DNA of 64,000 bases from Halopseudomonas xiamenensis (GTDB lineage: Bacteria > Pseudomonadota > Gammaproteobacteria > Pseudomonadales > Pseudomonadaceae). The DNA is taken from positions 124,001 to 188,000 of the forward strand of contig NZ_JACLGO010000003.1 in the NCBI RefSeq assembly GCF_014219065.1, in the 5' to 3' direction. Below the pieces are notes generated by a model, which did no database searches, was not told the DNA's origin, and saw nothing but the letters and a program-made list of their open reading frames with translations. Of the stretch, positions 24,148 to 62,051 are shown piece by piece (positions within the stretch are counted from its first letter, which is position 1; every line of letters begins with the position of its first letter). The position numbers were made by a program, and so were the translations under genes.

Positions 24148-24224
24148 TGGCGCGCCCGGCAGGACTCGAACCTGCGACCATCCGCTTAGAAGGCGGATGC
24201 TCTATCCAGCTGAGCTACGGGCGC
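24148..24224 (-). tRNA. tRNA-Arg (anticodon TCT)
   Basis: This is a 77-base tRNA with encoded CCA. The acceptor GCGCCCG pairs with CGGGCGC. The anticodon stem TCCGC/GCGGA encloses CTTCTAA with anticodon TCT. It is first in the tRNA series, downstream of the promoter at 24312-24340. Confidence 0.96.
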
Positions 24225-40843: not shown

Positions 40844-41028
40844 CTGGGGATTCCTATGGTCTTGTCGTTATCAGGGGCTCAAGCCTAGCAACCCCACCCC
40901 GTGGCGTCAGTCAACTCAAGCGAACAGCCCATTCAACTTATCGCCAATGACCTCACCCCTGCGCTTGCTAGCATGGAGCCAAGTCCGTACATCGAAGGCT
41001 CTGTGGCATGCAGGGCCACTGGAGCCCC

Positions 41029-43546: not shown

Positions 43547-44392
43547 TCAGTGTTTGATGAAGTCGATCACCAGGCGGTTGAACTCCTCGGCATGCTCCCA
43601 CTGCGCCCAGTGCCCGCATTGGCTGAATACGTGCAGGGTCGAGTTGGGGATCATGTTGAGGAACTTCAGGCTCCAGTCGATGGGTACGAAACGGTCGTCG
43701 CGGCCCCAGGTAATCAACGTCTTGTTCGGGATGTTCGGCAGGTCGTTGGTGTAGTCACCCATATTGAAGCCGCTCATCTCCACGCTCTTGAGGAAGTTGG
43801 GCAGGTGATGGCCGTTCTCCATCATCGACTGGTAGCGTAACTCGATCAGTTCATCGGTCAGCGCACTGGGGTCGTAGACGAACACGTCGAGCATCCGGCG
43901 CAGGCTTTGCGGACTGGGATTCTTGTACACATCGAACAGCAGCTTGATGCCTTCCATCGGCAGCGGGGTGAAGATGCTGGTCTTGCCCACCCCGCCAGCG
44001 CCCATCAGGATCAGCTTGCCGACCCGTTCAGGGTTGTCCTTGGTGAAGGCCAGTGCACTGCCGCCGCCCATGGAATTGCCCACCAGGTGGGCCTGGTCGA
44101 TATCCAGAGCATCCATCAACTGGCGGGTGGCGCGGCCGTTGACGTCGAAACGCGGCTCGCCGGTAACGATCGGATCGGATTTGCCCCAGCCCGGGTAGTC
44201 CGGCAGGATCACCCGGTAACCGGCCTCGACGAAGGCATCGACGTTGCGGTGGAAGTTGGCCCAGCCGGTAGCGCCGGCACCGGAGCCGTGCAGCATGATG
44301 ACCACCTCCCCTTCCCCGGCCTCGTTGTAGTGCAGCTTCCAGTCTTCGGTCTGGACGAACTTGCTGGTGTTTTCCTGTGTGAACTGGCTCAT
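43547..44392 (-). CDS. Meta-cleavage-product hydrolase (alpha/beta hydrolase, BphD/HsaD/TesD type)
   Basis: The 281-residue C-C bond hydrolase cleaves the ring-fission product of a catechol to 2-hydroxypenta-2,4-dienoate and a carboxylic acid. The oxyanion segment VIMLHGSGAGATGWANF, nucleophile GNSMGGGSALAF (Ser about 109), acid GRDDRFVP and His in CGHWAQWE make a full triad. The ATG at 44392 follows AAGGA. It is the last gene of the 13-gene block, 66 bases after the aldolase. A second, divergent hydrolase is encoded at 56313-57197. Confidence 0.9.
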   Translation of the reverse strand: MSQFTQENTSKFVQTEDWKLHYNEAGEGEVVIMLHGSGAGATGWANFHRNVDAFVEAGYRVILPDYPGWGKSDPIVTGEPRFDVNGRATRQLMDALDIDQAHLVGNSMGGGSALAFTKDNPERVGKLILMGAGGVGKTSIFTPLPMEGIKLLFDVYKNPSPQSLRRMLDVFVYDPSALTDELIELRYQSMMENGHHLPNFLKSVEMSGFNMGDYTNDLPNIPNKTLITWGRDDRFVPIDWSLKFLNMIPNSTLHVFSQCGHWAQWEHAEEFNRLVIDFIKH

Positions 44393-44458
44393 TCGGTTTT
44401 CCTTCTTGTGGTTATCGCGTATTGGTAACGGGCCCACCATCGGCGTGCCCCGGGTGAT

Positions 44459-45490
44459 TCAGTTGGCCTGGCGCTGCTTGAGCAGATCCAGCGCCACGTC
44501 GACGATCATGTCCTCCTGGCCACCAACCATGCGGCGCTTGCCCAGCTCGACCAGGATATCCAGGGTCTTGAGACCGTATTTCTCCGCCGCCACCTCGGCA
44601 TGCCGCAGGAAACTGGAATACACCCCGGCATAGCCCAGCCCCAGGGTTTCCCGGTCGACCCGCACCGGGCGATCCTGCAGCGGGCGGACGATATCGTCGG
44701 CGGCGTTCATCAGCGTGTAGAGATCGGTACCGTGGTTCCAGCCCAGGCGCTCGGCGGCGGCGATAAACACCTCCAGCGGCGCGTTGCCGGCGCCGGCACC
44801 CATACCCGCCAGGCTGGCGTCGATGCGGTCGCAGCCCTCTTCCACCGCGGTGATCGAGTTGGCCACCCCCAGGCTGAGGTTGTGGTGGGCATGCATACCG
44901 GTGTGGGTAGCCGGATCGAGTGCATCCTTGAACGCACGCATGCGGTCGCGGATATCCTGCATGTTCATCGCCCCGCCGGAGTCGGCCATATAGATGCAGG
45001 TGGCGCCGTAGCTTTCCATCAGCTTGCCCTGCTCGGCCAGTTGCTGTGCCGGGATCATGTGGCTCATCATCAGGAAACCGACGGTGTCCATGCCCAGCTC
45101 GCGGGCATATTCGATATGCTGCTTCGATACATCGGCTTCGGTGCAATGGGTGGCGACCCGCACCACCCTGGCACCGGCGTCATAGGCGGCTTTCAGATCA
45201 TGTACAGTGCCGATACCCGGCAGCAGCAAGGTGGCGATTTTCGCGTGCTTGACCACATCGGCCACCGCCTCGATATATTCCAGGTCGGTATGCGCGGCAA
45301 AGCCGTAGTTGAAGGAGGAGCCCTGCAGGCCATCCCCGTGGGCCACTTCGATGGAATCGACCTTCGCCTGATCCAGCGCACGAGCGATATCCACCGCATT
45401 CTGCAGCGAATACTGGTGGCGGATGGCATGGCTGCCATCGCGCAGGGTCACATCGGAGATATAGAGTTTCTTGCCGGGATCGAAGCTCAT
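44459..45490 (-). CDS. 4-Hydroxy-2-oxovalerate aldolase
   Basis: The 343-residue DmpG/BphI-type aldolase cleaves 4-hydroxy-2-oxovalerate to pyruvate and acetaldehyde. The barrel begins [20 protein letters not shown] (catalytic metal Asp and Arg). It shows the metal-binding [13 protein letters not shown] and the C-terminal region that contacts the dehydrogenase. The start overlaps the dehydrogenase stop by four bases (ATGA). The two proteins form a channelling complex in known systems. GGAG precedes the ATG. Confidence 0.95.
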
Positions 45491-46437
45491 GCGGCGTCTC
45501 CTGTATTCAACATGGACTGGGCCATGCGCTCGGCAGTGGCCAGCGCCGCCGAGGTCATGATGTCGAGGTTGCCGGCGTAGGCCGGCAGGTAGTGGGCGGC
45601 GCCTTCGACTTCGAGGAAGATTGAGGTCTTCAGCCCGCCGATATGTCCTATGCCCGGCACGTTGACCGGCGTGGTATCGGGGATCACATCGAACTGCACT
45701 TTCTGTTTCAGGCGGTAACCCGGCACATAGCGCTGCACCGCGGCGGCCATTTCCTCGACCGAGGCGGCGACCTTGTCCTGATCGACCAGCTCCGACAGCA
45801 CGAACACGGTATCGCGCATGATCAGTGGCGGCTCGGCCGGGTTCATGATGATGATCGCCTTGCCCTTCCGGGCGCCGCCGATCACCTCGATGGCCTTGGA
45901 GGTGGTCTCGGTGAACTCGTCGATATTGGCCCGGGTGCCGGGGCCGGCGGACTTGCTGCTGATCGAGGCGACAATCTCGCCGTAATGCACCTTGGCTACC
46001 CGCGACACGGCGGCAACCATGGGGATGGTGGCCTGGCCACCGCAGGTGACCATATTGACGTTGGTCTGCTGCAGGTGCTCCTCCAGGTTCACCACCGGCA
46101 CGCAGTACGGGCCGATGGCCGCCGGCGTCAGGTCGATCATCCGCAGGCCGGGCTTGAGCTGGCGCAGCAGTGCATCGTTACGCACATGCGCGCCGGCGCT
46201 GGTGGCATCGAACACGAAGTCGATATCGGCGAACTCCGGCATCTGCGCCAGGCCGTCCACGCCCTGGTGGGTGGTGGCCACGCCCAGGCGCTGGGCACGG
46301 GCCAGACCGTCGGATGACGGATCGATACCGACCATCACCGACATCTCGATATGCTGCGCGTTGCGCAGGATCTTGATCATCAGGTCGGTGCCGATATTGC
46401 CCGAGCCGATGATCGCGGCTTTGAGTTTCTTGCTCAT
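45487..46437 (-). CDS. Acetaldehyde dehydrogenase, acylating
   Basis: The 316-residue DmpF/BphJ-type enzyme converts acetaldehyde from the aldolase to acetyl-CoA with NAD. It has the Rossmann motif [36 protein letters not shown] carrying the catalytic Cys, and [17 protein letters not shown]. Two ATGs are possible (46446 and 46437). GAGGA stands nine bases before the second, and family N-termini (MxxKLKxAIIG) agree with it. It lies between the hydratase and its aldolase partner. Confidence 0.95.
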
Positions 46438-46458
46438 TGTTGTCATTCCTCAGATGAA

Positions 46459-47244
46459 TCAGGCAAAGCGCACGCTGCAGCTGCCAAGGCCGGCAATGGT
46501 CATGTTCAGGTTGTCCCCGGCAGCCACCGGTACCATGCCCGACAGCGCACCGGACAGAATCACCTCGCCCGCCTTGAGGCTCATGCCCAGCCGCCCCAGG
46601 GTATTGGCCAGCCAGGCCACGGCGATCGCCGGCGAGCCCATGGTCGCGGCACCGGCACCAGTGCCGACGATGGCGCCGTTCTTTTCCAGCACCATGCCGG
46701 TGGTGTACAGGTCCAGTCCTCGCGGGTCGACCAGCCGATCACCCAGCACGAACAGTCCGCAGGAGGCGTTGTCCGCCACGGTGTCCTGAATCCTGATCTG
46801 CCAGTCACGGATGCGCGAGTCGACGATCTCGAAGCAGGCCATCACCCCTTCGGTGGCGCGCAGTACATCGGCCACGGTGACGCCGGGACCGGCCAGATCC
46901 TGCTTGAGTACGAAGGCGATCTCGCCTTCGGCCTTGGGCTGGATCAGCGTGGTCATGTCCACGCACTGGCCCTGGTTCACCACCATGCGGTCGGTAAGCA
47001 TGCCGAAATCCGGCTGGTCGACCTTGAGCAGGTCCATCACCGCCTGGCTGGTGACACCGATCTTCTTGCCGATAAGGCGTTCGCCATCCTCCTGGCGCCG
47101 GGCGATCAGTTGCTGCTGGATGGCGTAGGCGTCCTCGATGGTCAGCTGCGGATGGCGCTCGGTCAGCGGCGCCACCATGCGCGCCTCGCGCAGGGCGACG
47201 AACAGCTCATCGCCGAGCTGGGCATGCAGGGGGTTGTTGCTCAT
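46459..47244 (-). CDS. 2-Keto-4-pentenoate hydratase
   Basis: The 261-residue DmpE/MhpD-type hydratase adds water to 2-hydroxypenta-2,4-dienoate to give 4-hydroxy-2-oxovalerate. It belongs to the fumarylacetoacetase-related hydratase/decarboxylase family, with IGKKIGVTSQAVMDLL, the metal-site KAEGEIAFVL and MACFEIVDSRI, and GEVILSGALSG. The hydratase and decarboxylase forms look alike, but the neighbours and absence of a semialdehyde dehydrogenase favour the hydratase. It overlaps the upstream gene by four bases. Confidence 0.88.
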   Translation of the reverse strand: MSNNPLHAQLGDELFVALREARMVAPLTERHPQLTIEDAYAIQQQLIARRQEDGERLIGKKIGVTSQAVMDLLKVDQPDFGMLTDRMVVNQGQCVDMTTLIQPKAEGEIAFVLKQDLAGPGVTVADVLRATEGVMACFEIVDSRIRDWQIRIQDTVADNASCGLFVLGDRLVDPRGLDLYTTGMVLEKNGAIVGTGAGAATMGSPAIAVAWLANTLGRLGMSLKAGEVILSGALSGMVPVAAGDNLNMTIAGLGSCSVRFA

Positions 47245-47723
47245 GGTTGGGCTCCTTCGGATTCAAGCGCTGCCTCGGCCTGACGGGCCATCGCCTCGCA
47301 GCCGGCCAGCGCGCAGATAATGTCTTCTTCCTCACTGGCACCGGACACACCGATGGCACCGACCATGCGCCCCGCCAACTGGATCGGGAAGGCGCCACCC
47401 ATGGCGACGATCTCCGGGCGCAGCAACAGGTTCATGCGGATGCGCTCACTGGCGTTGTCGATCATATCGCCCAGGGTGCTGCTGGGCAGGCCGAACGAGG
47501 CCGAGGTGCGGGCCTTTTCGGTGGCCAGTTGGATGCTGTGCCAGGGCGTGCCCTCGGTGCGGGCGAAGGCCATCAGGTGGCCGCCGCCATCGACCACGGC
47601 GATGCTGACCTGCAGCTGGTTGCGCCGCGCGCAGTCCAGCGCCGCATCGACCCCGACCCGGGCCAGGTCCAGCGCCAGGCCGTCGCCGGGCAGGCGCGGC
47701 AGGGGTAATCCATGGCGGCTCAT
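47241..47723 (-). CDS. GlcG/HbpS family protein
   Basis: The 160-residue protein has the GlcG fold: LQVSIAVVDGGGHLMAFARTEG, a middle with TEKARTSASFG, and GGAFPIQLAGRMVGAIGVSGAS. Relatives bind haem or small molecules, or act as accessory proteins in catabolic operons; no enzymatic role is certain. It is overlapped at both ends by four bases with the hydratase and MMPL genes, so it is part of the operon. GAGG precedes the ATG. Confidence 0.8.
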   Translation of the reverse strand: MSRHGLPLPRLPGDGLALDLARVGVDAALDCARRNQLQVSIAVVDGGGHLMAFARTEGTPWHSIQLATEKARTSASFGLPSSTLGDMIDNASERIRMNLLLRPEIVAMGGAFPIQLAGRMVGAIGVSGASEEEDIICALAGCEAMARQAEAALESEGAQP

Positions 47724-50212
47724 GACAGCACCTCCTCTACAGCGAAGGCGCGGCGCTCGCTCGGATGCAGGGCATCGCCCGACTGCGTCTGCTCAGCCTG
47801 CTTCTGCCGCAGTACATATTGCGAGGTAAAATGCTTCGGCTGCAGCAGGAAACACGCCAGCGCCGGCACCAGGATCAGCGCCACCAGCATGTTGCAGAAG
47901 AACATGAAGGTCAGCAGCAGGCCCATGTCGGCCTGGAACTTGATCGGCGACAGTATCCAGGTCACCACGCCCAGCGACAGGGTCACGCCGGTGAACACCA
48001 CCACCCGGCCGGTGAAGTTGAGTGCCTGGAAGTAGGCTTCCGACAGGTTCGAGCCACGCTTGAGCCAGAACAGCATGACGCTGAGGATATACAGCGCATA
48101 GTCGACGCCGATCCCCACCCCCAGCGCCACCACCGGCAGAGTGGATACCTTCAGCCCCATGCCCAGCTTGACCATCAGCGCCTCGGCCAGCATCGAGGTC
48201 AGCATCAGCGGCAGGATCGCGCAGATGGTCGCCCGCCAGGAACGGAACGCCAGCAGGCACAGCAGACTCACCGCCAGGTACACGCCGATGACCATCTGGG
48301 TATTGGCGCGCTTGACCACGATATTGGTGGCGCTTTCGATACCGGCGTTACCGGCGGCCATGATGAAGCGCGCCTGCTCGTCGTTGAACTCCTGGGTGAA
48401 GTCCTCCACTGTGGACACCACCCCACTCAGGGTCTGTGCCTTGTGATCCTGCAGGTAGACGAACACCGACAGCAGCTCGCAGGTGGCATTGAACAGGTCA
48501 CGTGGCGAGCGGTTGGCCGCGGCATTGATCATCGGCTGGTTCGGCGGCAGCTCGTTCCATTTCAGGAAGCCCTCGTTCATCCCGACGTTGACCCGCCGCG
48601 CCACCCCGGCGATGGAGCTGGTGCCATCCACGCCCGGCAACTGGCGCAGGCGCCACTCCAGTTCCTCGACCTTGCGCAGGGTCTGGTAGTCGACACACTG
48701 CCCGGCAGGGGTCTCGACCATGAACACGAACACATCGCTGCTGGCCTGGTAGTTGCTGATAATGAACTGGTTGTCCTGGTTGTAGCGCGAGTCGGCGCGT
48801 AGCTCCGGCGCGCCGGGGTCCAGGTCACCGACCTGCAGGTTACGCGCCTCGAGCACTGCCCAGCCGGCCAGCGCACCGGCACACAGCAAGGCGCTGATGG
48901 CGACCCGCGGGCGGGTGAAGGCCAGCAGTCCACGCACTACGGCGGGCTTGCGGTAGTCCGGCTGTTCATGGGCACGCTCGGCGTCCAGCCGGCGCTGCGC
49001 GGCACGCGGTGACACACCGGTGTAGGACAGCATGATCGGCAGCAGTGCCAGGTTGGTGAACACCAGCAGCGCCACACCGATGCTGGAGATGATCGCCAGC
49101 TCCTTGATCACCGGGATATCGACGATGGTCATCACCGCAAAACCCACCGCGTCGGCCAGCAGTGCGGTCATGCCGGCGGCGAACAGGCGGCGGAAGGTAT
49201 AGCGTGCGGCGATCAGCTTGTGGGTGCCGCGCCCGATGTCCTGCATGATGCCGTTCATCTTCTGTGCACCATGGCTGACGCCGATGGCGTAGACCAGGAA
49301 CGGCACCAGGATCGAATAGGGATTGAGCTCGTAGCTCAGCAGCGGCAGCACGCCCAGCAGCCAGACCACACCCACCAGGGTACAGCCCTGTACCACCAGG
49401 GTGCTGCGCCAGCAGCGGGTGAAGTACAGTAGGATGGCGCTGGTGATCAGCACTGCGGCGGCGAAGAAGCTGAGCACCGCATACAGACCGGAAATCAGGT
49501 CACCCATGACCTTGGCGAAGCCGATGATGTGCAGCGATACACCCTGATCGGCATAACGATCACGGATATCCTCCAGCGCATCGGACAGCTGCTTGTAGTC
49601 CAGCGCCTCGCCGGTGGCCGGGTCCACGTCCAGCAGCGGTACCAGGATGATGCTGGAACGGAAGTCCGGCGCCACCAGTTGGCCGATCTCGCCGGACAGT
49701 TGCACGTTGCCGCGCAGCACCTCCAGGTCCTCGGCGCTACCGGCGAAGCCGTCGGGAATCACCGTGCCGCCATCGAAGCCATGCTCGGTCACCCCCTGCC
49801 AGCGGGTCAGCGGGGTCCACAGCGACTTCATGAAGGAACGGTCCACCCCCGGCAGCAGGAACACCTCGTCGTTGATCTGGCGCAGGGTCTCCATGTACTC
49901 GGCGCTGAATATGTCGCCCTCGCCCTCCAGCGCCACGGCGATGCGCAAGGTGTTGGCGGTGCCCTTGAGTTCATCCTGGTGCTTGAGATAGTTGAGGATG
50001 AACGGGTGGCTGGTAGGGATGGTCTTGAGGAAGCTGGCGTTCATGCGCACCTGGGTCGCCGACGCGGCAAACAGCACGGTCATCAGCACGCAGAAGGCGA
50101 TGATCCAGCCCCGGTAGTTGAACAGCAGACGCTCCAGGCCATTGCCCGAGCGCTGGTCGAAATCCTTCAGGTTGGTAATGGTCTGGAAACCGTCTGAAGA
50201 TGAAATAGCCAT
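47720..50212 (-). CDS. MMPL/RND-superfamily membrane transporter (hydrophobe/lipid type)
   Basis: The 830-residue inner-membrane protein has 12 spans in two repeats of one plus five, with large periplasmic loops after TM1 and TM7. The predicted proton-relay motif is seen in the second half as LGVGIGVDYALYILSVML. It belongs to the MMPL (hydrophobe exporter-like) branch rather than the drug pumps at the start of the window. In catabolic clusters such proteins sit with YCF48, DUF1329 and DUF1302 genes and are presumed to move a hydrophobic substrate through the envelope. Direction is unknown. A GAGG site lies about ten bases before the ATG. Confidence 0.85.
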   Translation of the reverse strand: MAISSSDGFQTITNLKDFDQRSGNGLERLLFNYRGWIIAFCVLMTVLFAASATQVRMNASFLKTIPTSHPFILNYLKHQDELKGTANTLRIAVALEGEGDIFSAEYMETLRQINDEVFLLPGVDRSFMKSLWTPLTRWQGVTEHGFDGGTVIPDGFAGSAEDLEVLRGNVQLSGEIGQLVAPDFRSSIILVPLLDVDPATGEALDYKQLSDALEDIRDRYADQGVSLHIIGFAKVMGDLISGLYAVLSFFAAAVLITSAILLYFTRCWRSTLVVQGCTLVGVVWLLGVLPLLSYELNPYSILVPFLVYAIGVSHGAQKMNGIMQDIGRGTHKLIAARYTFRRLFAAGMTALLADAVGFAVMTIVDIPVIKELAIISSIGVALLVFTNLALLPIMLSYTGVSPRAAQRRLDAERAHEQPDYRKPAVVRGLLAFTRPRVAISALLCAGALAGWAVLEARNLQVGDLDPGAPELRADSRYNQDNQFIISNYQASSDVFVFMVETPAGQCVDYQTLRKVEELEWRLRQLPGVDGTSSIAGVARRVNVGMNEGFLKWNELPPNQPMINAAANRSPRDLFNATCELLSVFVYLQDHKAQTLSGVVSTVEDFTQEFNDEQARFIMAAGNAGIESATNIVVKRANTQMVIGVYLAVSLLCLLAFRSWRATICAILPLMLTSMLAEALMVKLGMGLKVSTLPVVALGVGIGVDYALYILSVMLFWLKRGSNLSEAYFQALNFTGRVVVFTGVTLSLGVVTWILSPIKFQADMGLLLTFMFFCNMLVALILVPALACFLLQPKHFTSQYVLRQKQAEQTQSGDALHPSERRAFAVEEVLS

Positions 50213-50238
50213 ATCGAAGAACCTCTGGCGCAGGCCGG

Positions 50239-51300: not shown

Positions 51301-51363
51301 TTGGGCAACTCCTCGCAAGGCGGATTGCCCCCTGCCATGACTGGCAGGGGGCAACGGGATCGA

Positions 51364-52740: not shown

Positions 52741-52749
52741 GATCTGGCC

Positions 52750-54420
52750 TCAGAACGTATAGGATGCATTCAGGGAAATGAAGTCGCGGTCGCCGTTGGT
52801 CTGCTTGTAGGTCTTGACGCCCGACACGGCGCCGATCGACTCAACAAACTCCATGCGGTTGACCCGGTCGGTCGGACCGTAGAAGCCGTTGTAACTCAGC
52901 GCCACGGTGACACGCTTGAGGTACTCGGCCGACACACCGATGTTGAAGCCACCGCCCTTGGCCTGGCTGAAGCCACCCACCGCCGAGGAACGACCATCGA
53001 TGCCATAGCTCACGCCCATGGGTACCGACAGGTCGATGCCATCGAACACCTGGAAGTAGGTCGGGGTGAACACCACGCGCATGGCGGTGGCGTCGCGGGT
53101 GTTGTTGGGGTCCAGCCACTCGCGGTTCTTGGTCACGCTCAGGGTGCGGTTCCAGGCCAGCTCGCCCATCAGCGCGGCGGTATCCCAGAAGCGGCTCTGG
53201 GGCATGATCTGAATCATGCTGATCTGGGCATGCGCGGTATTACCCACGGCGTACAGCGGATTGCGGTCATTGTCGTGGTCGCCGGTGACATCGGCCACCG
53301 TCAGGCTGACCAGCGGTGCATTGCGGCGGATCGAGCCCTCGAAGGCGACGTTGGCATCACCGATGCCGGTCGTCGCGCTGAAGCCGTAGGCCCGCACATC
53401 CTCGGGAAAGACCAGCATATGCTCGCCAACGACGATGTCATCGGCCACGCCGGGCTGCGGCACGTCGAACGGCCGGGTCTGCACCTGGAAGTTCTTGTCG
53501 TGGTAGTTGATCGCGTACAGACCGAAGTCGGTATCGATGCTGTCGGCCCGGTAGCGCAGCTGGAAGCCCCACTGCCCCGAGTCACGCGCCTCGATGTCGC
53601 TGGTGCGGTACAGCGATACCCCCGGCGCAGCGAGAATGCGCTCGCCACCGCCATCGAGCAGGTCCGCCGGACTGAAATAGCTGCCGGCCGCCGGAATCCG
53701 CGTGCGCTCCCACTCGAACTGGTAATAGGCGCCCAGCGACAGGGCCGGGGTCAGCTGCAGGTCAGCGGAAATCTGCTTGACCGGCAGTACCAGCTCCTTG
53801 AACTGCGAGTTGGGCGCCGACAGCGCCTGGATCGCGTTGATCGGCATCATGCCGCCGGCAATGCCGTTGTTGCCGAAGAACAGGCTCTCGCCATACAGCA
53901 GCGAGTGCTGGCCGACACGCACCACGCCCCAGACATCATCGGTCAGGCTGAAGTCGGAATAGACGAAGGCGTCACGCAGCTCGGCATCACGGCCGTGCAG
54001 GTCGCGGGTCTCCTTGGTGAACTCGTTGTAGGCCACCGACAGGTTGTTGGCGCTGTCCGGGTTGTCATGGTCGTTCTTGCGGTTGTAGACCCGGTCATAC
54101 CAGGCCGCACCGCTGACACGCACGCCCATGCCACGGTAGTTGACGTCGAACTCGGAGAACAGGTCGACACGGTTGTTGATCATCGACCCCTTGTCGAAGT
54201 TACGGTTACCGTCATCCAGGGTGATGTCGGAAAGCAGGCGCTCCTTCTGACCCTGTACCCGCCAGGCCGCGTTGTACTTCACGTTGGTATCCAGACGGAT
54301 ACGCAGGTCGGGATTGGCGGTATCGAACTGGAACGCATGGGCAGGCAATGGGGAACAGAGCAGGATGGCAGCACTCAGGGCTGACAGCTGAAACGTCTTG
54401 TTCATCCTTCGGTAAGACAT
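52750..54420 (-). CDS. DUF1302 family outer-membrane beta-barrel
   Basis: The 556-residue protein has a signal peptide (LSALSAAILLCSPLPAHAF) and a beta-barrel pattern of alternating residues. It starts FDTANPDLRIRLDTNVKYNAAWRV and finishes with a C-terminal aromatic (SLNASYTF), as needed for barrel assembly. It probably forms a channel for hydrophobic substrates in the outer membrane. GAGG is about seven bases before the ATG at 54420; a second ATG five codons in is less likely. A gap of 101 bases separates it from the oxygenase gene. Confidence 0.87.
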   Translation of the reverse strand: MSYRRMNKTFQLSALSAAILLCSPLPAHAFQFDTANPDLRIRLDTNVKYNAAWRVQGQKERLLSDITLDDGNRNFDKGSMINNRVDLFSEFDVNYRGMGVRVSGAAWYDRVYNRKNDHDNPDSANNLSVAYNEFTKETRDLHGRDAELRDAFVYSDFSLTDDVWGVVRVGQHSLLYGESLFFGNNGIAGGMMPINAIQALSAPNSQFKELVLPVKQISADLQLTPALSLGAYYQFEWERTRIPAAGSYFSPADLLDGGGERILAAPGVSLYRTSDIEARDSGQWGFQLRYRADSIDTDFGLYAINYHDKNFQVQTRPFDVPQPGVADDIVVGEHMLVFPEDVRAYGFSATTGIGDANVAFEGSIRRNAPLVSLTVADVTGDHDNDRNPLYAVGNTAHAQISMIQIMPQSRFWDTAALMGELAWNRTLSVTKNREWLDPNNTRDATAMRVVFTPTYFQVFDGIDLSVPMGVSYGIDGRSSAVGGFSQAKGGGFNIGVSAEYLKRVTVALSYNGFYGPTDRVNRMEFVESIGAVSGVKTYKQTNGDRDFISLNASYTF

Positions 54421-54521
54421 AAGGCACCTCAGATATGGGCGGTACTCCGCCTTTTATTTTTATCCCGCACCGACCACCGTGATGGCCGGTGCGATCCATT
54501 CGGGGCAGGCCCCAAATCAGG

Positions 54522-55739
54522 TCAAGCGTTCAGCGACACCGGCTCCAGGCCGAAGACCATGGGCGGCAGTTGCTGACCGAGCAGGTAGGCTCCCAGCATG
54601 CCGGCGGTATCGTCGGCGTTCTGGGTGATATGGTTGGCCGCGGCGATGACGTCGCGCAGGATGCGCTGCAGCGGGTTGTTCAGATAGATACCGCGCGCCG
54701 AGGTCGCCTTGAACAGCAGCATCACCGCTTCCTCGCAGTCGCGTCCGACCCGGGCGATATCCAGCATGTGGTGGACCCGGTCGTAGTTCGGCACCAGCTC
54801 GCCGCGTTCGACGATCTCGGTGGTCTCGGCCATCATCTGCAACAGCCGTGCCCGCGCCGAACGCACCCGCACCACCGCGTTGCCCAGGCGATCCTTGACG
54901 TAGGGGCTGAGGGCAGCGCTGCCGCCATCGGTGGTATTGGTGCGCACGGTCATCTGGCGGATGTACTCATCGATACCGCCCTGGGCCATGCCGACGATCA
55001 GCGCCGACACCGAGCCGAAGAAGATCTGATTGAACGGGTACAGGTAATGCGTACCGCGATCATCCTTGTGGTACTGGATCAGGCTGTGGGTACGGTGATA
55101 GGGAACGAAGGTCTCGCGGACCACCAAGCTCTTGCTGCCGGTGCCGGCCAGGCCGAACACGTGCCAGTCATCCTCGATCTCGTAGTCGGTGGCCGGTACC
55201 AGCATGGACAGGCGATCGATCACATTGCCCTGGGCATCACGGCGCAGCCCACCGAGGAAAGCCCACTTGCCATGGTCGCAGCCGCTGGAGGTCTTCCAGG
55301 TGCCGCTGATCCGGTAGCCGCCTTCGACTTCCTCGACCTTGCCGAAGGGCGGGTAGGAGGACGCGATGATGGTCTTGTCATCCTCACCCCAGACATCTTC
55401 GCAGGCCTGATCCGGCAGACTGCCGAACTCCCACTGGTGCACCCCGAGGATCATCATGTTCCAGGCGCTGCTGCAGCAACCGCGCCCCAGCTCCATCAAT
55501 ACCTTGTAGAACACCGCCGGGTTCATCTCGTAGCCACCGAACTTGGCCGGCTGCAGGATCTTGAAGAACCCTGCATCGACGAAGGCCTGGATGGTTTCCG
55601 GCGATACCATGCGGTTCTTCTCGACCGAGTCGGCCTTCTCGATAAGCATGGGAATCAGGTCACGGGCACGCTGGATCAGTTCGGCCTCGGAGGGCACACA
55701 ACTGGCTTGGTCGGCAGTCTTTTTCAGCACACTAGTCAT
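54522..55739 (-). CDS. Flavin-dependent monooxygenase, acyl-CoA dehydrogenase fold (HsaA/TesA2/HpaH-C2-like oxygenase)
   Basis: This 405-residue oxygenase probably hydroxylates a phenol to a catechol using reduced flavin from a separate reductase. It shows the HsaA-like sequence GFFKILQPAKFGGYE, AWNMMILGVHQWEFG, TIIASSYPPFG, ISGTWKTSSGCDHGKWAF and HVFGLAGTGSKSLVV, with the aromatic-hydroxylase SSGCDH stretch replacing acyl-CoA dehydrogenase residues. The substrate could be a 2-substituted phenol, a steroid seco-phenol or similar; no steroid-ring genes are nearby. The ATG at 55739 starts the family N-terminus, whereas the long frame to 55835 overlaps the reductase gene. It lies 43 bases after that gene. 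Confidence 0.87.
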   Translation of the reverse strand: MTSVLKKTADQASCVPSEAELIQRARDLIPMLIEKADSVEKNRMVSPETIQAFVDAGFFKILQPAKFGGYEMNPAVFYKVLMELGRGCCSSAWNMMILGVHQWEFGSLPDQACEDVWGEDDKTIIASSYPPFGKVEEVEGGYRISGTWKTSSGCDHGKWAFLGGLRRDAQGNVIDRLSMLVPATDYEIEDDWHVFGLAGTGSKSLVVRETFVPYHRTHSLIQYHKDDRGTHYLYPFNQIFFGSVSALIVGMAQGGIDEYIRQMTVRTNTTDGGSAALSPYVKDRLGNAVVRVRSARARLLQMMAETTEIVERGELVPNYDRVHHMLDIARVGRDCEEAVMLLFKATSARGIYLNNPLQRILRDVIAAANHITQNADDTAGMLGAYLLGQQLPPMVFGLEPVSLNA

Positions 55740-55782
55740 ATCGGTTCTCACTTTGTTGTTATCCGGGCAGCAACCTCGCGGC

Positions 55783-56316
55783 TCAGGCAAGCGCCGCGAA
55801 TCGTCCGTTGAAATAGATAAGGGGATCTTCTTCACTCATCTGTCCGGTCACCTGGATGACCTCGCAGAGAAACATGTCATGGGTACTGGCCGGCACCGCC
55901 TCGACCACCCGGCACTCGAAACTGACCAGCGCATCGCTGAGCACCGGCACCTGGCTGATGCCCGGCACCCAGGCGCCGTCATCGAAACGCTGTTCACCGG
56001 CGACCCCGTCGACCATGCCGGCGAAGCGCCGGGCGATCGATTCCTGCCGGCAGCCAAGCACGTTCACACTCAGGTGACGGCTGGCGGTAATCACCCCGTG
56101 GGCATAGACGTTACGGTTCACGCATACCAGCAGGCGTGGCGGCTCGGCGGTGATCGAGCACACCGCGGTGGCGGTCAGCCCGGCACGTTGCTGATCATCA
56201 CCGCTGGCGATCACCACGCAGTGGCCGGCCAGGTTGCGCATGGCCTTGCAGAAATCGGGCGTGGCGACCGGTAGGTGTTCGCGTGAGGGTTTCATCATGG
56301 CGACCTGGGCATTCAT
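55783..56316 (-). CDS. Flavin reductase, two-component monooxygenase partner (HsaB-like)
   Basis: The 177-residue protein is a short-form flavin reductase. It has FCKAMRNLAGHCVVIAS, GLTATAVCSITAEPPRLLVCVN and HDMFLCEVIQVTG. It should supply FMNH2 or FADH2 to the adjacent monooxygenase. Unlike the reductase at 41029-41973 it has no MarR domain. Its start overlaps the hydrolase stop by four bases, so synthesis is coupled. Confidence 0.9.
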   Translation of the reverse strand: MNAQVAMMKPSREHLPVATPDFCKAMRNLAGHCVVIASGDDQQRAGLTATAVCSITAEPPRLLVCVNRNVYAHGVITASRHLSVNVLGCRQESIARRFAGMVDGVAGEQRFDDGAWVPGISQVPVLSDALVSFECRVVEAVPASTHDMFLCEVIQVTGQMSEEDPLIYFNGRFAALA

Positions 56317-57197
56317 GCACCTACCCGCCCGGTCGACAGGAACTCGACCATCACCTGGTTGAACTCCTCGGGCGACTCGTACTGCGGCCAGTGCCCGGCC
56401 AGTTTCTTCATCACATACAGCTGCCCCCTGGCCAGGCGCGGCAGCGCCGACTCGGCGGCGGCCACGTCATGGATCGGGTTGTGGCTGGTCCACAGCAGCA
56501 GCGATTCGCACTGCACCTTCTCCAGCTCGATCATGTCCGGCGTGCCGCCCTCGTTGACCTTGCGCAGGCGGCCGTACACCAGCGGCGCACTGGCCTGGAA
56601 ATCGGGCCGCGAATAGATCGCCAGGCGCGAGCCGACCAGCTCCTCGTTGAGCAGATCCCAGTTGCCCTCGTACAGCAGCCATTGCATGCGCGCCAGCACG
56701 CTGTCATAGGTAGGCTGCTGGCCGGAGCTGCGGGCCGACAGCTCGGCCAGGTTCTTCAGGTCCTGGCGGCCCTGGTCACTGACGATCGGAATGCCGCCGG
56801 TGGTGTTGAACACCGCACGCAGGATGCGCTCGGGATAGCGCACCGCGAAACCACCAGTGACCACGCCGCCCAGCGACTCGCCGGAGATATGCGCCCGCTC
56901 GATGCCCAGCACGTCCATCAGTTCACGCAGTTGCTCGACGTAGTCGCTGATCGAGTACTCGATATCCAGCTTCTTGGCCGACAGGCCATGACCGACGTAA
57001 TCGAAGGCGATCACGTGGTAATGCTCGCCGAGAGCGACCACGTTCCTGGCATAGGCCTCCAGGTGACCACCGATGCCATGCATCAGGATCAGCGCCTCGG
57101 GCTTGCCCTGCCCGGCTTCGGCAATGCGCGTACGGCCATAGGTGGGCAGATCGACAAAACGTATCTCTGCGCCGAGAAAATCCAACCAGATACTCAT
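56313..57197 (-). CDS. Second meta-cleavage-product hydrolase-like alpha/beta hydrolase
   Basis: This 294-residue alpha/beta hydrolase has ALILMHGIGGHLEAYARN, nucleophile GESLGGVVTGGFA (Ser about 110) and the final His in AGHWPQYES. The usual acid Asp of W-G-x-x-D is replaced: the aligned segment is WTSHNPIHDV with Asn at that site. An Asp four residues further on might substitute. It may act on the bulky ring-fission product, on an ester, or be a divergent accessory hydrolase. GGAG lies nine bases before the ATG. It sits between the extradiol dioxygenase and reductase genes. Confidence 0.83.
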   Translation of the reverse strand: MSIWLDFLGAEIRFVDLPTYGRTRIAEAGQGKPEALILMHGIGGHLEAYARNVVALGEHYHVIAFDYVGHGLSAKKLDIEYSISDYVEQLRELMDVLGIERAHISGESLGGVVTGGFAVRYPERILRAVFNTTGGIPIVSDQGRQDLKNLAELSARSSGQQPTYDSVLARMQWLLYEGNWDLLNEELVGSRLAIYSRPDFQASAPLVYGRLRKVNEGGTPDMIELEKVQCESLLLWTSHNPIHDVAAAESALPRLARGQLYVMKKLAGHWPQYESPEEFNQVMVEFLSTGRVGA

Positions 57198-57224
57198 GTT
57201 CTTGTTCTCCAGGTAAGGCCGCGA

Positions 57225-58151
57225 TCAGGACAGGGGGTGCTCTTCGGTTTCCGGAACCGGGATCAGGTTGCGCTTGTGCCCCCAGTCGCTCATCTGGTGG
57301 AAGGTCTTGACCTCCCAGTCGTTCTCGTCGATGACGATCCCGCCCCAGCCGAACTCGAAGTTGAAGCCCGACGGGGTCTGCGCGTAGAAGGAGAACATCC
57401 TGTCGTTCGGGTGATGGCCCAGCTCCAGCACGATCGGGATACCGGCATTGACGGCGCGGTCATAGGCCAGGCCGACATCGTCCATGTCTTCCAGCTGCAC
57501 CATGAAATGGTTGAGTACCTTGTTGGTAGGCGCCTCGGCGGTGGCGATCGAGTGGTGACGGCCGGTCTTGGTATGGAAGAAGGTCGCCTCGACCATCATC
57601 CCCGGTTGTACTTCCTGGCGGATGTAGTCGCTGATGCGGAACTTGAGCACGTTCTTGTAGAAGTCCACGGTCTCGGCACCGTTGCCACGGTTGGCGAACG
57701 GCAGGATGTGCCCTACCCCCAGGTTGCCGGTGACGAAGCCGCCCTTGAGCACCTTGGAACGGAACTGGTCCTTGAGCAGCACCACGCCGTGGCCGAAGAA
57801 GAACTCATGGTCGAAACCATTGGGGTCCTTGCAGCTGTAGCCCTTCTCGATATGCCGCCGGGCGCACTGCTCGGCACTCAGGGTGTGCAGCTCGACGCCC
57901 TTGTCGCGCAGCCCGGCGACGTACTCCTCCAGCTCCCGCTCGCTGGTAAACTCCCAGCCGGCGGCGATGATGTCATCGGCGGCGTTCTGTTCGAGGAAGA
58001 AACGCTGGCAGTATTCGTCCATGCGCAGGGTCATGCTGGTGGCATCGCGCCGGCCGACCTGCATGCCGAGGATGTCGGTGGCGAACACCTGCCACTTGTC
58101 GAGGTCGCTGACGCCGAAACCGACGTAGCCCAAAGAAGAAATCTCAGCCAC
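57225..58151 (-). CDS. Extradiol ring-cleavage dioxygenase, type I (BphC/HsaC/TesB-like)
   Basis: The 308-residue two-domain vicinal-oxygen-chelate enzyme cleaves a catechol next to its hydroxyls. It begins SLGYVGFGVSDLDKW. The Fe(II) ligands are visible as His in LGVGHILPF, His in NHFMVQLEDMDD and Glu in FNFEFGWGG. The HsaC/BphC-like layout suggests a catechol with a bulky 3-substituent. I chose the GTG at 58151, with GGAG eight bases upstream, over a TTG 13 codons earlier. It is the first gene of the block, directly behind the sigma-54 promoter. Confidence 0.93.
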   Translation of the reverse strand: MAEISSLGYVGFGVSDLDKWQVFATDILGMQVGRRDATSMTLRMDEYCQRFFLEQNAADDIIAAGWEFTSERELEEYVAGLRDKGVELHTLSAEQCARRHIEKGYSCKDPNGFDHEFFFGHGVVLLKDQFRSKVLKGGFVTGNLGVGHILPFANRGNGAETVDFYKNVLKFRISDYIRQEVQPGMMVEATFFHTKTGRHHSIATAEAPTNKVLNHFMVQLEDMDDVGLAYDRAVNAGIPIVLELGHHPNDRMFSFYAQTPSGFNFEFGWGGIVIDENDWEVKTFHQMSDWGHKRNLIPVPETEEHPLS

Positions 58152-58205
58152 TGTGCTATCTCCGTTATTCTTGTTTTCCAGTCCAACCAAGGGTGACCAG
58201 AACGT

Positions 58206-58224
58206 CTCTTGCGTTGTACAAGAG
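58206..58224. other. Inverted repeat around the predicted transcription start
   Basis: CTCTTG (58206-58211) and CAAGAG (58219-58224) flank seven bases. The site covers about -5 to +13 relative to the start expected from the -24/-12 promoter, so it could be a repressor or IHF-independent control site. Confidence 0.35.
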
Positions 58225-58228
58225 CAAT

Positions 58229-58244
58229 AGCAACGGCTGTGCCA
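58229..58244 (-). promoter_or_regulatory. Sigma-54 (-24/-12) promoter of the catabolic block
   Basis: On the minus strand TGGCAC (58239-58244), five bases, then TTGCT (58229-58233) match the sigma-54 consensus at every invariant position. The start would be near 58219, 68 bases before the first gene. A sigma-54 activator gene is divergent from it. The 58152-58539 gap also holds the inverted repeats listed separately and is AT-rich in its middle. Confidence 0.85.
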
Positions 58245-58342
58245 GATAGCGCGCCAACGGCTCTAAATATATTTTTCTCCTTCAATAACAACAAGATAGG
58301 GACAAAAGCAGGGAGCCTTCACGGTTTACTGGTACAGGGCCG

Positions 58343-58367
58343 GAAAAATATGCACTTCATATTTTTC
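58343..58367. promoter_or_regulatory. Candidate upstream activator site 1
   Basis: GAAAAATATG and CATATTTTTC are perfect 10-base arms around CACTT. The site lies about 100-125 bases upstream of the -24 element, the right distance for enhancer binding by a XylR/DmpR-type activator. It differs from the TTGATCAATTGATCAA-type sites known for XylR. Confidence 0.55.
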
Positions 58368-58378
58368 GGGAACCTCGA

Positions 58379-58397
58379 AATTTTCCGCATGAAAAAT
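58379..58397. promoter_or_regulatory. Candidate upstream activator site 2
   Basis: AATTTTC and GAAAAAT pair in six of seven positions around CGCAT. It lies 36 bases from the centre of site 1, close to three and a half helical turns, in the divergent regulatory gap. Confidence 0.4.
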
Positions 58398-58539
58398 CCG
58401 CACACCTTTCGAACAAGCTGAAAAGCCCATTCGCTCCCCGCTATCCACCACTGCCGGGGCGACGCATCTGTTAGACTTTTTCCCATGGCAGATCGATATC
58501 CCTGCGGTCTGCTACAACAACAATATGCATGGTGAACAC

Positions 58540-60363
58540 ATGTCCTCCTCTTCCGACAACAACCACGGCCGCCCGCACTCGCTCAAGGACGTGATCACCG
58601 ACCTGCGCTTTCCGGACATGCAGGACCTGGCCGAGCATCTGTATTTCAACCCGGAAGAGGGCATGATCTGGCTGGGCGAGAAACGCATGCTGCTGTTGCA
58701 CGCCGAAGCCTTCGGCGCCCTGCGCCAGGAGTTGCTGGAAACCATCGGCGTGGAACAGACCCGCGGCCTGCTGACCCGCATCGGTTATCTGAGCGGCACC
58801 CGCGATGCGGAACTGGCAATCAAGGCCCGGCAGAACGGTAGCCAGCTCGATATCCTCGCCGCCGGCGCGCAGATCCATGCGCTGTGCGGCACCATCAAGG
58901 TTGAGCCTGTGCGTATCGAGGTCGACCAGCACCAGGGTTACCTGTACGGCGAGTTCATCTGGAAGCACTCGATCGAGAGCGACCTGCACCTGGCCAGCCA
59001 CGGCCAGAGCCACGACCCGGTATGCTGGATGGCCTCGGGCTACGGCTCCGGCTTCCTGACCCGGCTGATGGGCAAGCGCATCCTGGTACGCGAGGCCGAA
59101 TGCGTAGCCCGCGGCGATGATGCCTGCCGGGCGGTGGCCCGACCGGTGGAAGACTGGGAGGATGCCGAGGACGACCTGCAATACTTCCAGCCCCGCCTGT
59201 CCGGCCAACAGCGCCGCAAGGCCCCGGCGCGCAGCGAGTTCGCCGGCATGCAGCCGGGCAAGGCCCCCTTCGGGCTGGCCTTCCAGCAGCAGGACGTGGT
59301 CGAGCTGGACCGGCCGGTGGGCAGCTCGGCGGCCTACCACGCGGTGCTGCACAAGATCCTGCGGGTCGCCTCGACCAATGCCACCGTTCTGCTGCTGGGC
59401 GAAAGCGGCGTCGGCAAGACCATGTTCGCCCATGAAGTGCATGCCAACAGCCGGCGCGCCGAGGCGCCCTTCATCGAGATCAACTGCGCGGCGATTCCCG
59501 ATACCCTGATCGAGTCCGAGCTGTTCGGCGTGCAGCGCGGCGCCTATTCCGGCGCCACCGAAGCGCGCCCCGGACGCTTCGAGATCGCCGATGGCGGCAC
59601 CATCTTCCTCGACGAGATCGGCACCCTGAGCATGACCGCCCAGGGCAAGCTGCTGCGTGTGCTGCAGAGTGGCGAGCTGGAGCGCCTGGGCAGCACCAAG
59701 ACCCTGAAGATCGATGTGCGGGTCATTGCCGCGACCAACGAGGACCTGTCCGAAGCGGTCAAGCAGGGGCGTTTTCGCAGTGACCTGTTCTACCGCCTGA
59801 ATGTGTTCCCGGTGACCATCGCGCCGCTGCGCGAACGCAAGGACGACCTGCCGCTGCTGCTGGAGCGCTTCGTCAACCAGTTGTGCCAGCAACACGGCCG
59901 ACAACTGGCCGGCATCACTCCCAGGGCGTTGCAGCGCATCCTGGACTACCCCTGGCCGGGCAATATCCGCGAGTTCGAGAATGTCATCGAGCGGGCGGTG
60001 ATCCTCGCCGACGACGGCGAAACCATCGACCTGCGGCACCTCTCCGGCCTGGAGGACAACCAGCGCGAACGCCAGCACGGCACCGTCAGCTGGGACCAGG
60101 CGCCCGGTATCGGCATCCGCCTGCCGGAACCCACCACCCGCCCGGCTGGAGGCACCGAGGCCGCTGCCGGCCCCTCGCTCGATCACACCGCCCTGCGCCT
60201 GCTGCAACAGCAGCCGCTCAGCCTCAACGATATCGAGGACGCCTTCGTACGTGCCGCCATGCAGCTGGCCCAACAGAACATCACCCGCGCCGCCGCCCTG
60301 CTCGGCCTGACCCGGGCGCAGATGGATTATCGCCTGAAGAAGATGGCCAACAGCGACGGCTAG
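58540..60363 (+). CDS. Sigma-54-dependent activator with aromatic-sensing XylR-N/V4R domains (DmpR/XylR/HbpR type)
   Basis: The 607-residue activator should turn on the divergent block when it binds an aromatic effector. The N-terminal sensor begins DLRFPDMQDLAEHLYFNPEEG. The V4R segment with ECVARGDDACR is near residue 200, then a linker rich in Gln and Ala. The AAA+ domain has Walker A GESGVGKT (about 287), the sigma-54 contact loop GAYSGA (about 334) and FLDEIGTLSM. The C-terminal Fis-type helix-turn-helix is NITRAAALLGLTRAQMDYRL. The loop normally reads GAFTGA. I chose the ATG at 58540 (GGTGA upstream); another at 58525 lacks a ribosome site. It ends overlapping the convergent EamA gene by four bases. 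Confidence 0.93.
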   Translation: MSSSSDNNHGRPHSLKDVITDLRFPDMQDLAEHLYFNPEEGMIWLGEKRMLLLHAEAFGALRQELLETIGVEQTRGLLTRIGYLSGTRDAELAIKARQNGSQLDILAAGAQIHALCGTIKVEPVRIEVDQHQGYLYGEFIWKHSIESDLHLASHGQSHDPVCWMASGYGSGFLTRLMGKRILVREAECVARGDDACRAVARPVEDWEDAEDDLQYFQPRLSGQQRRKAPARSEFAGMQPGKAPFGLAFQQQDVVELDRPVGSSAAYHAVLHKILRVASTNATVLLLGESGVGKTMFAHEVHANSRRAEAPFIEINCAAIPDTLIESELFGVQRGAYSGATEARPGRFEIADGGTIFLDEIGTLSMTAQGKLLRVLQSGELERLGSTKTLKIDVRVIAATNEDLSEAVKQGRFRSDLFYRLNVFPVTIAPLRERKDDLPLLLERFVNQLCQQHGRQLAGITPRALQRILDYPWPGNIREFENVIERAVILADDGETIDLRHLSGLEDNQRERQHGTVSWDQAPGIGIRLPEPTTRPAGGTEAAAGPSLDHTALRLLQQQPLSLNDIEDAFVRAAMQLAQQNITRAAALLGLTRAQMDYRLKKMANSDG

Positions 60364-61310: not shown

Positions 61311-61442
61311 CAGAGTATCGATCCAGAAGACGAAAGATCATGCTACCCTTGCCCCGGCGGAATTAATTATCTATATATCCCAATAACCAGCCAAAACAGA
61401 ATCAACTTTCCCGATTACACGAACAAACAGAAGAGATTATCC

Positions 61443-61937: not shown

Positions 61938-62051
61938 TGAGAGCAAGCGGCAGCGACCGGGAACAGGCAGAATTCGACCGCAAGAATCGGAGTTCCCGCG
62001 ATGGCAGGCTGGCTTAAGCTGACAACCAATGCCCAAGCCAGAGATGATGCC

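Follow-up and report, generated by a model that had tools for sequence, protein, structure and literature searches.

Which compound does a bacterium consume through a block of genes that joins a two-component phenol hydroxylase, a meta-cleavage pathway and an envelope transport module? This question is raised by the window analysed here, a stretch of 64,000 nucleotides from Halopseudomonas xiamenensis, in which 13 genes, all on the minus strand, run from 58151 to 43547 and a regulator gene is divergently placed at 58525–60363 (plus strand). The order is extradiol dioxygenase, hydrolase 1 (Hyd1), flavin reductase, HsaA-like oxygenase, DUF1302, DUF1329, YCF48/BNR, MMPL/HAE3, GlcG/HbpS-like, hydratase, acylating acetaldehyde dehydrogenase, 4-hydroxy-2-oxovalerate aldolase and, last, hydrolase 2 (Hyd2). 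The ORF coordinates bear out the one-directional block described in the first-pass annotation, and profile scores and folds confirm the BphC-like dioxygenase, two hydrolases, lower pathway and GlcG protein listed there. The 4-base overlaps, given as five, number four (Hyd1/Red, MMPL/GlcG, GlcG/dmpE and dmpF/dmpG). The extent of 43547–60363 fits the block but is too short for the linked gene set, which starts at 63789 and extends past the window. We computed gene content, the conserved site, linkage, residues and folds, and from these we infer the substrate, the direction and every reaction. The locus probably catabolises a hydrophobic compound by way of a substituted phenol, with the upstream module belonging to the same pathway.

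The regulator is a sigma-54-dependent activator of the MobR/DmpR/XylR type. Its XylR_N, V4R sensor, sigma-54 AAA and Fis-type HTH (HTH_8) domains all score above the Pfam cut-offs, and its score against the MobR exception model NF041906 (544.7 bits) lies below the cut-off of 999. The activator loop reads GAYSGA and not GAFTGA, a conservative variant; among 34 regulator ORFs, 15 carry GAYSGA, eight GAFSGA, six GAFTGA and three GAYTGA, and two were not read. The first gene of the block, the dioxygenase, is preceded by an exact −24/−12 sigma-54 promoter sequence, TGGCAC-N5-TTGCT (58229–58244, minus strand), which is the sole exact match in the 64 kb. A site scoring at least 10/11 is found in all 31 regulator/operon spacers that passed the filter (the window plus 30 loci). 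An inverted repeat at 58340–58370 (13-nt arms, 92% complementary, 5 nt apart) is a candidate activator site. The spacers and the activator domains support the earlier proposal that the 13-gene block is under sigma-54 control through a phenol-type V4R activator of the XylR/DmpR/MobR group, as predicted from sequence. A 101-base gap just upstream of the DUF1302 gene could conceal a further promoter.

The oxygenase (54522–55739, 405 aa) is, by profiles and fold, an HsaA-like group D phenol hydroxylase. Among solved structures, 3-HSA hydroxylases are closest to it in both sequence and fold, and it scores 324 bits against the HsaA equivalog NF045629, below the cut-off of 450. The longest ORF begins too early, at a GTG upstream of the ATG at 55739 that serves as the start in the family. 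Profile matches identify the next gene (55783–56316) as the flavin reductase of a two-component hydroxylase. The first-pass annotation had called both components HsaA-like. This holds for the oxygenase, whereas RutF and HpaC (136 and 114.5 bits) match the reductase better than HsaB does (NF045630, 62.8 bits, cut-off 230). An acyl-CoA-dehydrogenase-fold oxygenase and a separate flavin reductase gene are both present, and the pair is accordingly predicted, by gene content and fold, to be a group D two-component flavin monooxygenase. HsaA chemistry begins with a 3-alkylphenol.

The dioxygenase (57225–58151) is of the BphC/HsaC type. It retains the iron ligands H148, H215 and E266, and this 2-His-1-Glu set together with the two-domain fold places it in the type I extradiol dioxygenase superfamily. 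Its scores against HsaC (NF045631, 196.2, cut-off 450) and BphC (TIGR03213, 271.5, cut-off 366.45) are both below the cut-offs. The closest solved structure by sequence is 23al/9x2g (344.1 bits). This entry is missing from the best 50 matches of both fold searches with the dioxygenase (library ending 2026-04-08), and a substrate reading based on it was dropped. Hyd1 (56313–57197) is an alpha/beta hydrolase and, by profile match, a distant HsaD relative; the catalytic Ser and His are retained, and Asn stands where the acid usually does. Hyd2 (43547–44440, with a probably better start at 44392) is a BphD/MhpC-like C–C hydrolase by profile and by its nearest solved structure, BphD (361 bits); it scores 381.4 against the BphD equivalog TIGR03343, below the cut-off of 462.15. 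The three lower-pathway enzymes exceed their NCBIfam equivalog cut-offs: 2-oxopent-4-enoate hydratase (DmpE, 46459–47244; 435.1, cut-off 408.8), acylating acetaldehyde dehydrogenase (DmpF, 45487–46446; 473.1, cut-off 282.25) and 4-hydroxy-2-oxovalerate aldolase (DmpG, 44459–45490; 592.2, cut-off 286). The GlcG/HbpS-like protein (47241–47723) was assigned by profile match. Families, folds and conserved iron ligands thus back the route of phenol hydroxylase, meta-cleavage and 2-hydroxypentadienoate that had been proposed. Since the oxygenase, reductase, dioxygenase and hydrolases remain below the nearest equivalog cut-offs, their reactions are extrapolated.

Between the oxygenase and GlcG genes lie a DUF1302 protein (AmeA-like, 52750–54420), which by analogy would be in the outer membrane, a DUF1329 protein (AmeB-like, 51364–52740), by analogy periplasmic, a YCF48/BNR protein (AmeC-like, 50239–51354) and an MMPL/HAE3-like RND transporter (AmeD-like, 47720–50212). 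The transporter scores 154.7 against its best model, HAE3 (TIGR00921), below the cut-off of 351.9. The cassette DUF1302–DUF1329–YCF48/COG4447–HAE3 RND has the content and order of AmeABCD. This match in content and order supports the earlier reading of the four genes as an envelope set that, by analogy, would serve a hydrophobic compound.

The feature that says most about the substrate was absent from the first-pass annotation. It is a module that lies past the regulator, at a distance of 3 to 16 kb; its first gene, for an isochorismatase-like protein (IsoCh, 63214–63789, minus strand), is in the window, and the rest lies beyond the window end. Coordinates are given in the window frame as read from locus L082, and LysR and ETF-beta were named by homology to scanned relatives. 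The genes encode an SDR (63816–64559), FAD1 (64556–66004), LysR (66092–67045), ETF-alpha (68636–69577), ETF-beta (69601–70383), FAD2 (70399–71772), an Asp/Glu-racemase-like protein (AGrac, 71784–72602), a PQQ dehydrogenase (72599–74701) and a TcuA-like flavoprotein (74809–76206). FAD1, FAD2 and the TcuA-like protein are three FAD_binding_2 flavoproteins. The last scores 496.3 bits against tricarballylate dehydrogenase (NF006130, cut-off 369) and is flanked by the PQQ dehydrogenase and ThrH, not by TcuB. On a Variovorax plasmid the upper module is present and the 25-kb stretch read has no ring-cleavage gene, so the module may act alone.

Key residues in the module are replaced. Fumarate-reductase-like chemistry was rejected for the three flavoproteins because four positions, which we take to bind carboxylate in that family, are replaced in all of them. 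Both of the presumed fumarate-reductase Arg positions are occupied by Tyr, the residue that we take to function in ketosteroid-type dehydrogenases, in FAD1, FAD2, the TcuA-like protein and the KstD-like protein of this genome. The same Tyr/Tyr pattern is found in TcuA encoded beside TcuB and in other TcuA-type control proteins; it is therefore not discriminating, does not single out aromatisation, and that reading was demoted. At what are presumably the canonical Cys positions of isochorismatase-like amidohydrolases and Asp/Glu racemases, IsoCh has Val (27/27 rows with data) and the AGrac orthologues have Thr and Glu (21/21 and 22/22). The module thus offers two enzyme families that lack the catalytic cysteine. 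A paralogue in L086 (38% identity) retains the first Cys.

At least one upper-module gene was found in 31 of 80 related loci, and at least two in 30; these loci cluster on the oxygenase tree. The count is a lower bound because loci with short flanks (for example, L008 and L022) are scored as having no module. Hyd1 is present in 19 of the 31 and was not found in L007, L009–L011, L016, L018, L021 and five sphingomonad loci; the reductase was not found in L005 and L006. Ame genes are absent from many core-bearing loci. All four are present in L022 and L023, where DUF1302 has 28–29% identity, below the threshold applied. Loci of Pseudomonas, Marinobacter, Halieaceae, Paraburkholderia, Cupriavidus, Sphingobium, Novosphingobium, Acidocella, Methylocella and Roseiarcus share parts of this gene set, so the compound consumed is probably widespread. 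The single promoter and regulator, together with a presence/absence pattern dividing core-only phenol clusters from those that also carry the upper module, provide a genetic handle.

In the mechanism that we propose, a phenol or its precursor would bind the XylR_N/V4R part of the activator, which would fire sigma-54 polymerase at 58229–58244 and start transcription of the block. The reductase would feed reduced flavin to the oxygenase, which would place a second hydroxyl adjacent to the first, yielding a 3-substituted catechol. Ring cleavage by the BphC-type dioxygenase would fall between the substituted carbon and its hydroxylated neighbour, and one of the two alpha/beta hydrolases would split the product into R-COOH and 2-hydroxypenta-2,4-dienoate. 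The latter would be converted by the hydratase, aldolase and acylating dehydrogenase to pyruvate and acetyl-CoA. The Ame-type set may handle the hydrophobic substrate or shield the envelope, and the upstream module (three flavoproteins, ETF, SDR and the two Cys-less family members) may either make the phenol or degrade R-COOH. As both 2- and 3-substituted phenols can yield a 3-substituted catechol, the ortho-substituted substrate suggested earlier is not favoured over the alternatives.

How the two modules are joined can be read in two ways. It is possible, though tentative, that they form a complete undescribed aerobic route for an oxygenated ring compound, saturated wholly or in part, such as a terpenoid alcohol or ketone. 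The SDR would oxidise it and the three flavoproteins would desaturate it to the phenol through the dedicated ETF, with new chemistry in IsoCh and AGrac, before ortho-hydroxylation and meta-cleavage. A narrower form of our best explanation, to which we give a similarly guarded place, is that the core acts directly on 2- or 3-alkyl- or aryl-phenols from the environment and the module degrades R-COOH by polycarboxylate-type flavoprotein chemistry. It agrees with the tricarballylate dehydrogenase score, with plasmid relatives of TcuA and FAD1 that adjoin genes for a TTT transporter binding protein, isopropylmalate dehydratase, citryl-CoA lyase or aconitase, and with loci of Paraburkholderia bannensis, P. 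oxyphila and one of two of P. unamae, which have the core plus Hyd2 and no upper-module gene within approximately 10 kb at the identities required. However, three flavoproteins, ETF and SDR seem excessive for a side-chain acid, no result points to a particular acid, and plasmids of Rhodococcus and Variovorax carry FAD2-like genes (41 and 45% identity) amid those for aromatic oxygenases.

A second steroid (9,10-seco) ring A/B module, in which a secosteroid would be the substrate of the HsaA-, HsaC- and HsaD-like enzymes, is improbable. The oxygenase score and its 3-HSA hydroxylase relatives suggest it, Ame-type transporters could conceivably carry steroids, and the FAD_binding_2 enzymes match ketosteroid dehydrogenases, though behind urocanate and fumarate reductases. 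Yet the enzymes fall under the HsaA, HsaC and HsaD equivalog cut-offs, the regulator is phenol-type and the block has no KstD-like gene. The first-pass annotation was right that the block lacks ring A/B steroid genes, but the genome has, on another contig, a KstD-like gene (601.2 bits, cut-off 788) that adjoins another HsaA-like gene (371.8 bits against a cut-off of 450), a better HsaA match although also below the cut-off, with its own hydratase/dehydrogenase/aldolase set. The block would thus be a parallel route, and the equivalog scores and this separate locus led us to reject the steroid module as the main reading. Still less credible is a maleamate/maleate (NicF/NicE-like) route for a nitrogen-containing substrate; IsoCh and AGrac families do co-occur upstream, but their catalytic cysteines are missing. 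The preferred reading remains the hydrophobic compound degraded through a substituted phenol.

The block resembles hsaABCD/tes in its two-component group D hydroxylase, type I extradiol dioxygenase, C–C hydrolase and hydratase/aldolase/dehydrogenase. It differs in its scores below the equivalog cut-offs, the lack of KstD/KshAB, the XylR-type activator and the separate steroid-type locus. The hbpCAD/HbpR pathway for 2-hydroxybiphenyl and ortho-substituted phenols shares the XylR-family activator, extradiol dioxygenase and C–C hydrolase. HbpA is a single-component FMO, and the present locus adds the two-component group D hydroxylase and the Ame and flavoprotein modules.

The claim that the pathway is undescribed stands uncontradicted among the open-licence PMC papers listed by the literature searches, where the route is not named; the listed titles and abstracts on thymol, carvacrol and menthol degradation hold no such cluster save the Rhodococcus ipp genes. 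The ippA1A2/ippB genes of Rhodococcus sp. D-6 include an HsaA-like two-component FMO for an ortho-alkylphenol, 2-isopropylphenol; in the available text (PMC12442392) IppA1 hydroxylates para and IppB cleaves hydroquinone, whereas the BphC-type enzyme and full lower pathway here point to a catechol. Carbofuran-phenol degradation (CfdCX/CfdE) also has a two-component FMO for a bulky ortho-substituted phenol. The pathway proposed for strain KN65.2 forms a 3-substituted catechol, cleaves the ring and releases an acid together with 2-oxopent-4-enoate, and for CDS-1 a review gives para hydroxylation; the accessible parts of these papers mention no sigma-54 regulator or Ame set (PMC8292978, PMC4498121). 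DUF1329 has been published for phenanthrene growth of Delftia, and DUF1302/DUF1329 beside phenol hydroxylase genes for Zoogloea oleivorans Buc, where a sigma-54 regulator and a catechol dioxygenase gene are also present; that hydroxylase is multicomponent (DmpKL-type), and the text as available names no YCF48 or MMPL protein (PMC7012976). AmeABCD of Castellaniella defragrans, as far as the accessible text describes it (PMC6394551), has the same four parts in the same order within a catabolic island for hydrophobic compounds. Here the cassette runs in the same direction as the genes of a phenol hydroxylase/meta-cleavage pathway, under predicted sigma-54 control, which locates a complete Ame-type set within a predicted aromatic operon.

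The window (G000:C33:124001-188000) belongs to a host genome of 4.28 Mb in 82 contigs and holds a real, modular, sigma-54-controlled catabolic locus. The catabolic block comprises 13 genes, from the dioxygenase at 58151 to hydrolase 2 at 43547, and all 13 are on the minus strand, in agreement with the one-direction run described in the first-pass annotation. The intergenic distances are, in order, 27, -4, 43, 101, 9, 9, 26, -4, -4, 12, -4 and 18, which gives four 4-base overlaps and not the five counted earlier. The start codon of the oxygenase gene is the ATG at 55739, not a GTG farther upstream. Hydroxylation together with a meta-cleavage route is the fairly probable core mechanism of the block. 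Every part of the locus is of a known kind; the conserved link between its modules is the somewhat surprising element.

Oxygenase relatives were collected by scanning one genome per species, and the best 80 of the 419 found were kept as loci. The host oxygenase shares 99% identity with one from Pseudomonas sp. MYb185 and 92% with one from Halopseudomonas phragmitis, which makes a Halopseudomonas-like pseudomonad the probable host. Loci L002-L016, from Pseudomonas and Marinobacter, for the most part show the block again over the sequence covered for each; among them, hydrolase 1 was not found in L007-L011 and L016, nor the reductase in L005 and L006. In eight of nine genomes checked, hydrolase 2 (72-86% identity) follows the aldolase at a distance of no more than about 1 kb; one copy, from Marinobacter, has an internal TAG as listed. 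The top hydrolase 2 matches of Cupriavidus lacunae (54%) are on other contigs. Since a close oxygenase occurs in only 4 of 37 genomes of the host's genus, the host counted, the locus is accessory.

The divergent activator contains XylR_N, V4R, sigma-54 and Fis-type domains by profile search; its top named profile is MobR, at 544.7, below the cut-off of 999. A sigma-54 site, TGGCACAGCCGTTGCT, is located at 58229-58244 on the minus strand and is the sole exact match within the window. Taken alone, this site would be weak, because one-mismatch matches are no commoner than chance (3 in the window, 3.54 expected). The comparison of spacers makes it strong. Spacers of 40-1200 bases between a minus-strand regulator and a plus-strand cluster gene were retained from the window and 30 loci, and the best operon-strand site scored 10 or 11 of 11 in all 31 (11 of 11 in 20); mononucleotide shuffles, 200 per spacer, gave frequencies of 0 to 0.015. 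The sigma-54 control proposed from the first reading is thus borne out. The activator loop reads GAYSGA, as it does in 15 of the 34 relatives' regulator ORFs read. Among the regulators of L003-L050, the serine variants (GAYSGA/GAFSGA) number 23 ORFs, 20 of them from loci bearing the upstream module, and the threonine variants (GAFTGA/GAYTGA) number nine, none from such loci. As judged from these sequences, the contact-loop residue may possibly mark regulator divergence.

The upstream module begins past the regulator with an isochorismatase-like gene (IsoCh, 63214-63789). Between the two, within 60360-63125, are an Ada O6-methylguanine methyltransferase gene (472.6, cut-off 345) and two unassigned ORFs; P. 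taeanensis (L004) has an EmrB-like MFS gene at this position instead, and L003 an ORF of similar size. After IsoCh the contig continues with SDR, FAD1, LysR, an IS110 element, ETF-alpha, ETF-beta, FAD2, the Asp/Glu-racemase-like gene (AGrac), a PQQ dehydrogenase and a TcuA-like flavoprotein gene that ends at 76206 in window coordinates. The IS110-family transposase (67374-68252; L082 5374-6252) separates LysR from ETF-alpha in the host, whereas these two are adjacent in MYb185 (L117). The PQQ-dependent alcohol dehydrogenase gene (72599-74701; 558.5, cut-off 480.05) overlaps AGrac by 4 bases and is present only in the host and MYb185 among nine regions.

Of the 80 loci, 31 contain one or more upstream-module genes and 30 contain two or more, with identity thresholds applied. 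By whole-genome search, AGrac was recovered from 15 of 16 genomes with module-bearing loci, the exception being UMAB-08, and from none of seven with loci lacking the module. When the module label is mapped onto an 83-oxygenase tree, four changes are needed, fewer than in any of 500 shuffles, although near-copies favour such an outcome. The order TcuA, AGrac, FAD2, ETF-beta, ETF-alpha recurs in five of eight further regions (L110, L111, L113, L116 and L117, where the PQQ gene interrupts it); in L112, AGrac and FAD2 have no TcuA alongside, L115 has the genes in a different arrangement, and L114 was poorly resolved by simple gene calling. In Sphingobium estronivorans AXB, dioxygenase, hydrolase 1, reductase, oxygenase, AGrac, FAD2, ETF-beta and ETF-alpha are contiguous, with TcuA-like and LysR genes immediately upstream. 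This conserved linkage should be of use to specialists.

The module might act before or after the block. FAD1, FAD2 and the TcuA-like protein have tyrosines at the Arg402 and Arg544 positions of flavocytochrome c fumarate reductase and lack its two histidines. The host's own KstD-like protein has the same pattern, which at first spoke for desaturation of a ketone, whereby a cyclohexanone-type ring would be aromatised to a phenol. This reading is weakened by two controls that share the pattern: the TcuA that neighbours TcuB in Martelella, and another TcuA whose neighbours are isopropylmalate dehydratase genes. FAD2-like proteins on Rhodococcus and Variovorax plasmids lie amid aromatic monooxygenase, dioxygenase or fumarylacetoacetate-hydrolase-type genes, and the FAD1-like ones of Azospirillum and Agrobacterium plasmids adjoin citryl-CoA lyase and CoA transferase genes, once with aconitase. 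A Variovorax plasmid carries the entire module (41-67% identity), with no ring-cleavage gene in the 25 kb of it that were read. AGrac and IsoCh lack the family cysteines in every orthologue with data. That the module makes the phenol as an aromatising upper pathway is possible, and so is consumption of the side-chain acid that the C-C hydrolase would release.

The host also has KstD-like and HsaA-like genes side by side at G000:C81:28865-31792 (601.2 and 371.8 bits, both below model cut-offs), with an additional hydratase/dehydrogenase/aldolase set nearby. Because this steroid-type locus is separate, the block is probably a parallel route. L084 (G000:C81:15001-35000) contains, at about 5.7-18.6 kb, HsaA-like, KstD-like, SDR, HPAH-reductase-like and hydratase/dehydrogenase/aldolase genes. 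The window further holds three tRNA genes in a row (Leu, His, Arg; 23882-24224, minus strand) and a p-hydroxyphenylacetate 3-hydroxylase reductase component (C1) gene (41008-41973, plus strand; 394.1, NCBIfam cut-off 340). As for an oxygenase partner of C1, the genome has an HsaA/HPAH-type gene at G000:C6:39594-40712, which scores 208.1 bits with the HsaA model.

DUF1302, DUF1329, YCF48/BNR and an HAE3-like RND gene stand consecutively in the block, and all four are found at 30% identity or more in 16 of the 80 loci. At 1918-7639 of L110 (P. taeanensis MS-3), a DUF1329 gene (45% to its counterpart in the block) flanked by 537- and 821-codon ORFs lies upstream of the TcuA-like gene; this is perhaps a second such set. 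AmeA, B, C and D of Castellaniella defragrans are the same four parts in the same order, and AmeABCD deletion impaired growth on non-functionalised monoterpenes (PMC6394551). On grounds of fitness and co-folding, DUF1302/DUF1329 proteins of Pseudomonas putida are tied to a periplasmic protein and a multidrug efflux transporter required for Tween 20 (PMC10866462). Benzene transport is proposed for a DUF1329, YCF48 and MMPL protein cluster of a methanogenic culture, in a paper that also mentions an association of DUF1329 with phenanthrene growth in Delftia (PMC13101534). One Zoogloea oleivorans cluster combines DUF1302 and DUF1329 with a sigma-54 regulator and a phenol hydroxylase of the multicomponent type (PMC7012976). 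The envelope set is therefore already known, and DUF1302/DUF1329 have been tied to aromatic clusters before. Among the open-licence PMC papers listed by the searches, no title or abstract describes the gene set as a whole. The nearest system among them is ippA1A2/ippB for 2-isopropylphenol, whose oxygenase hydroxylates the para position (PMC12442392); the same paper notes that for the ortho route of Pseudomonas sp. HBP1 Prp the monooxygenase sequence is unidentified.
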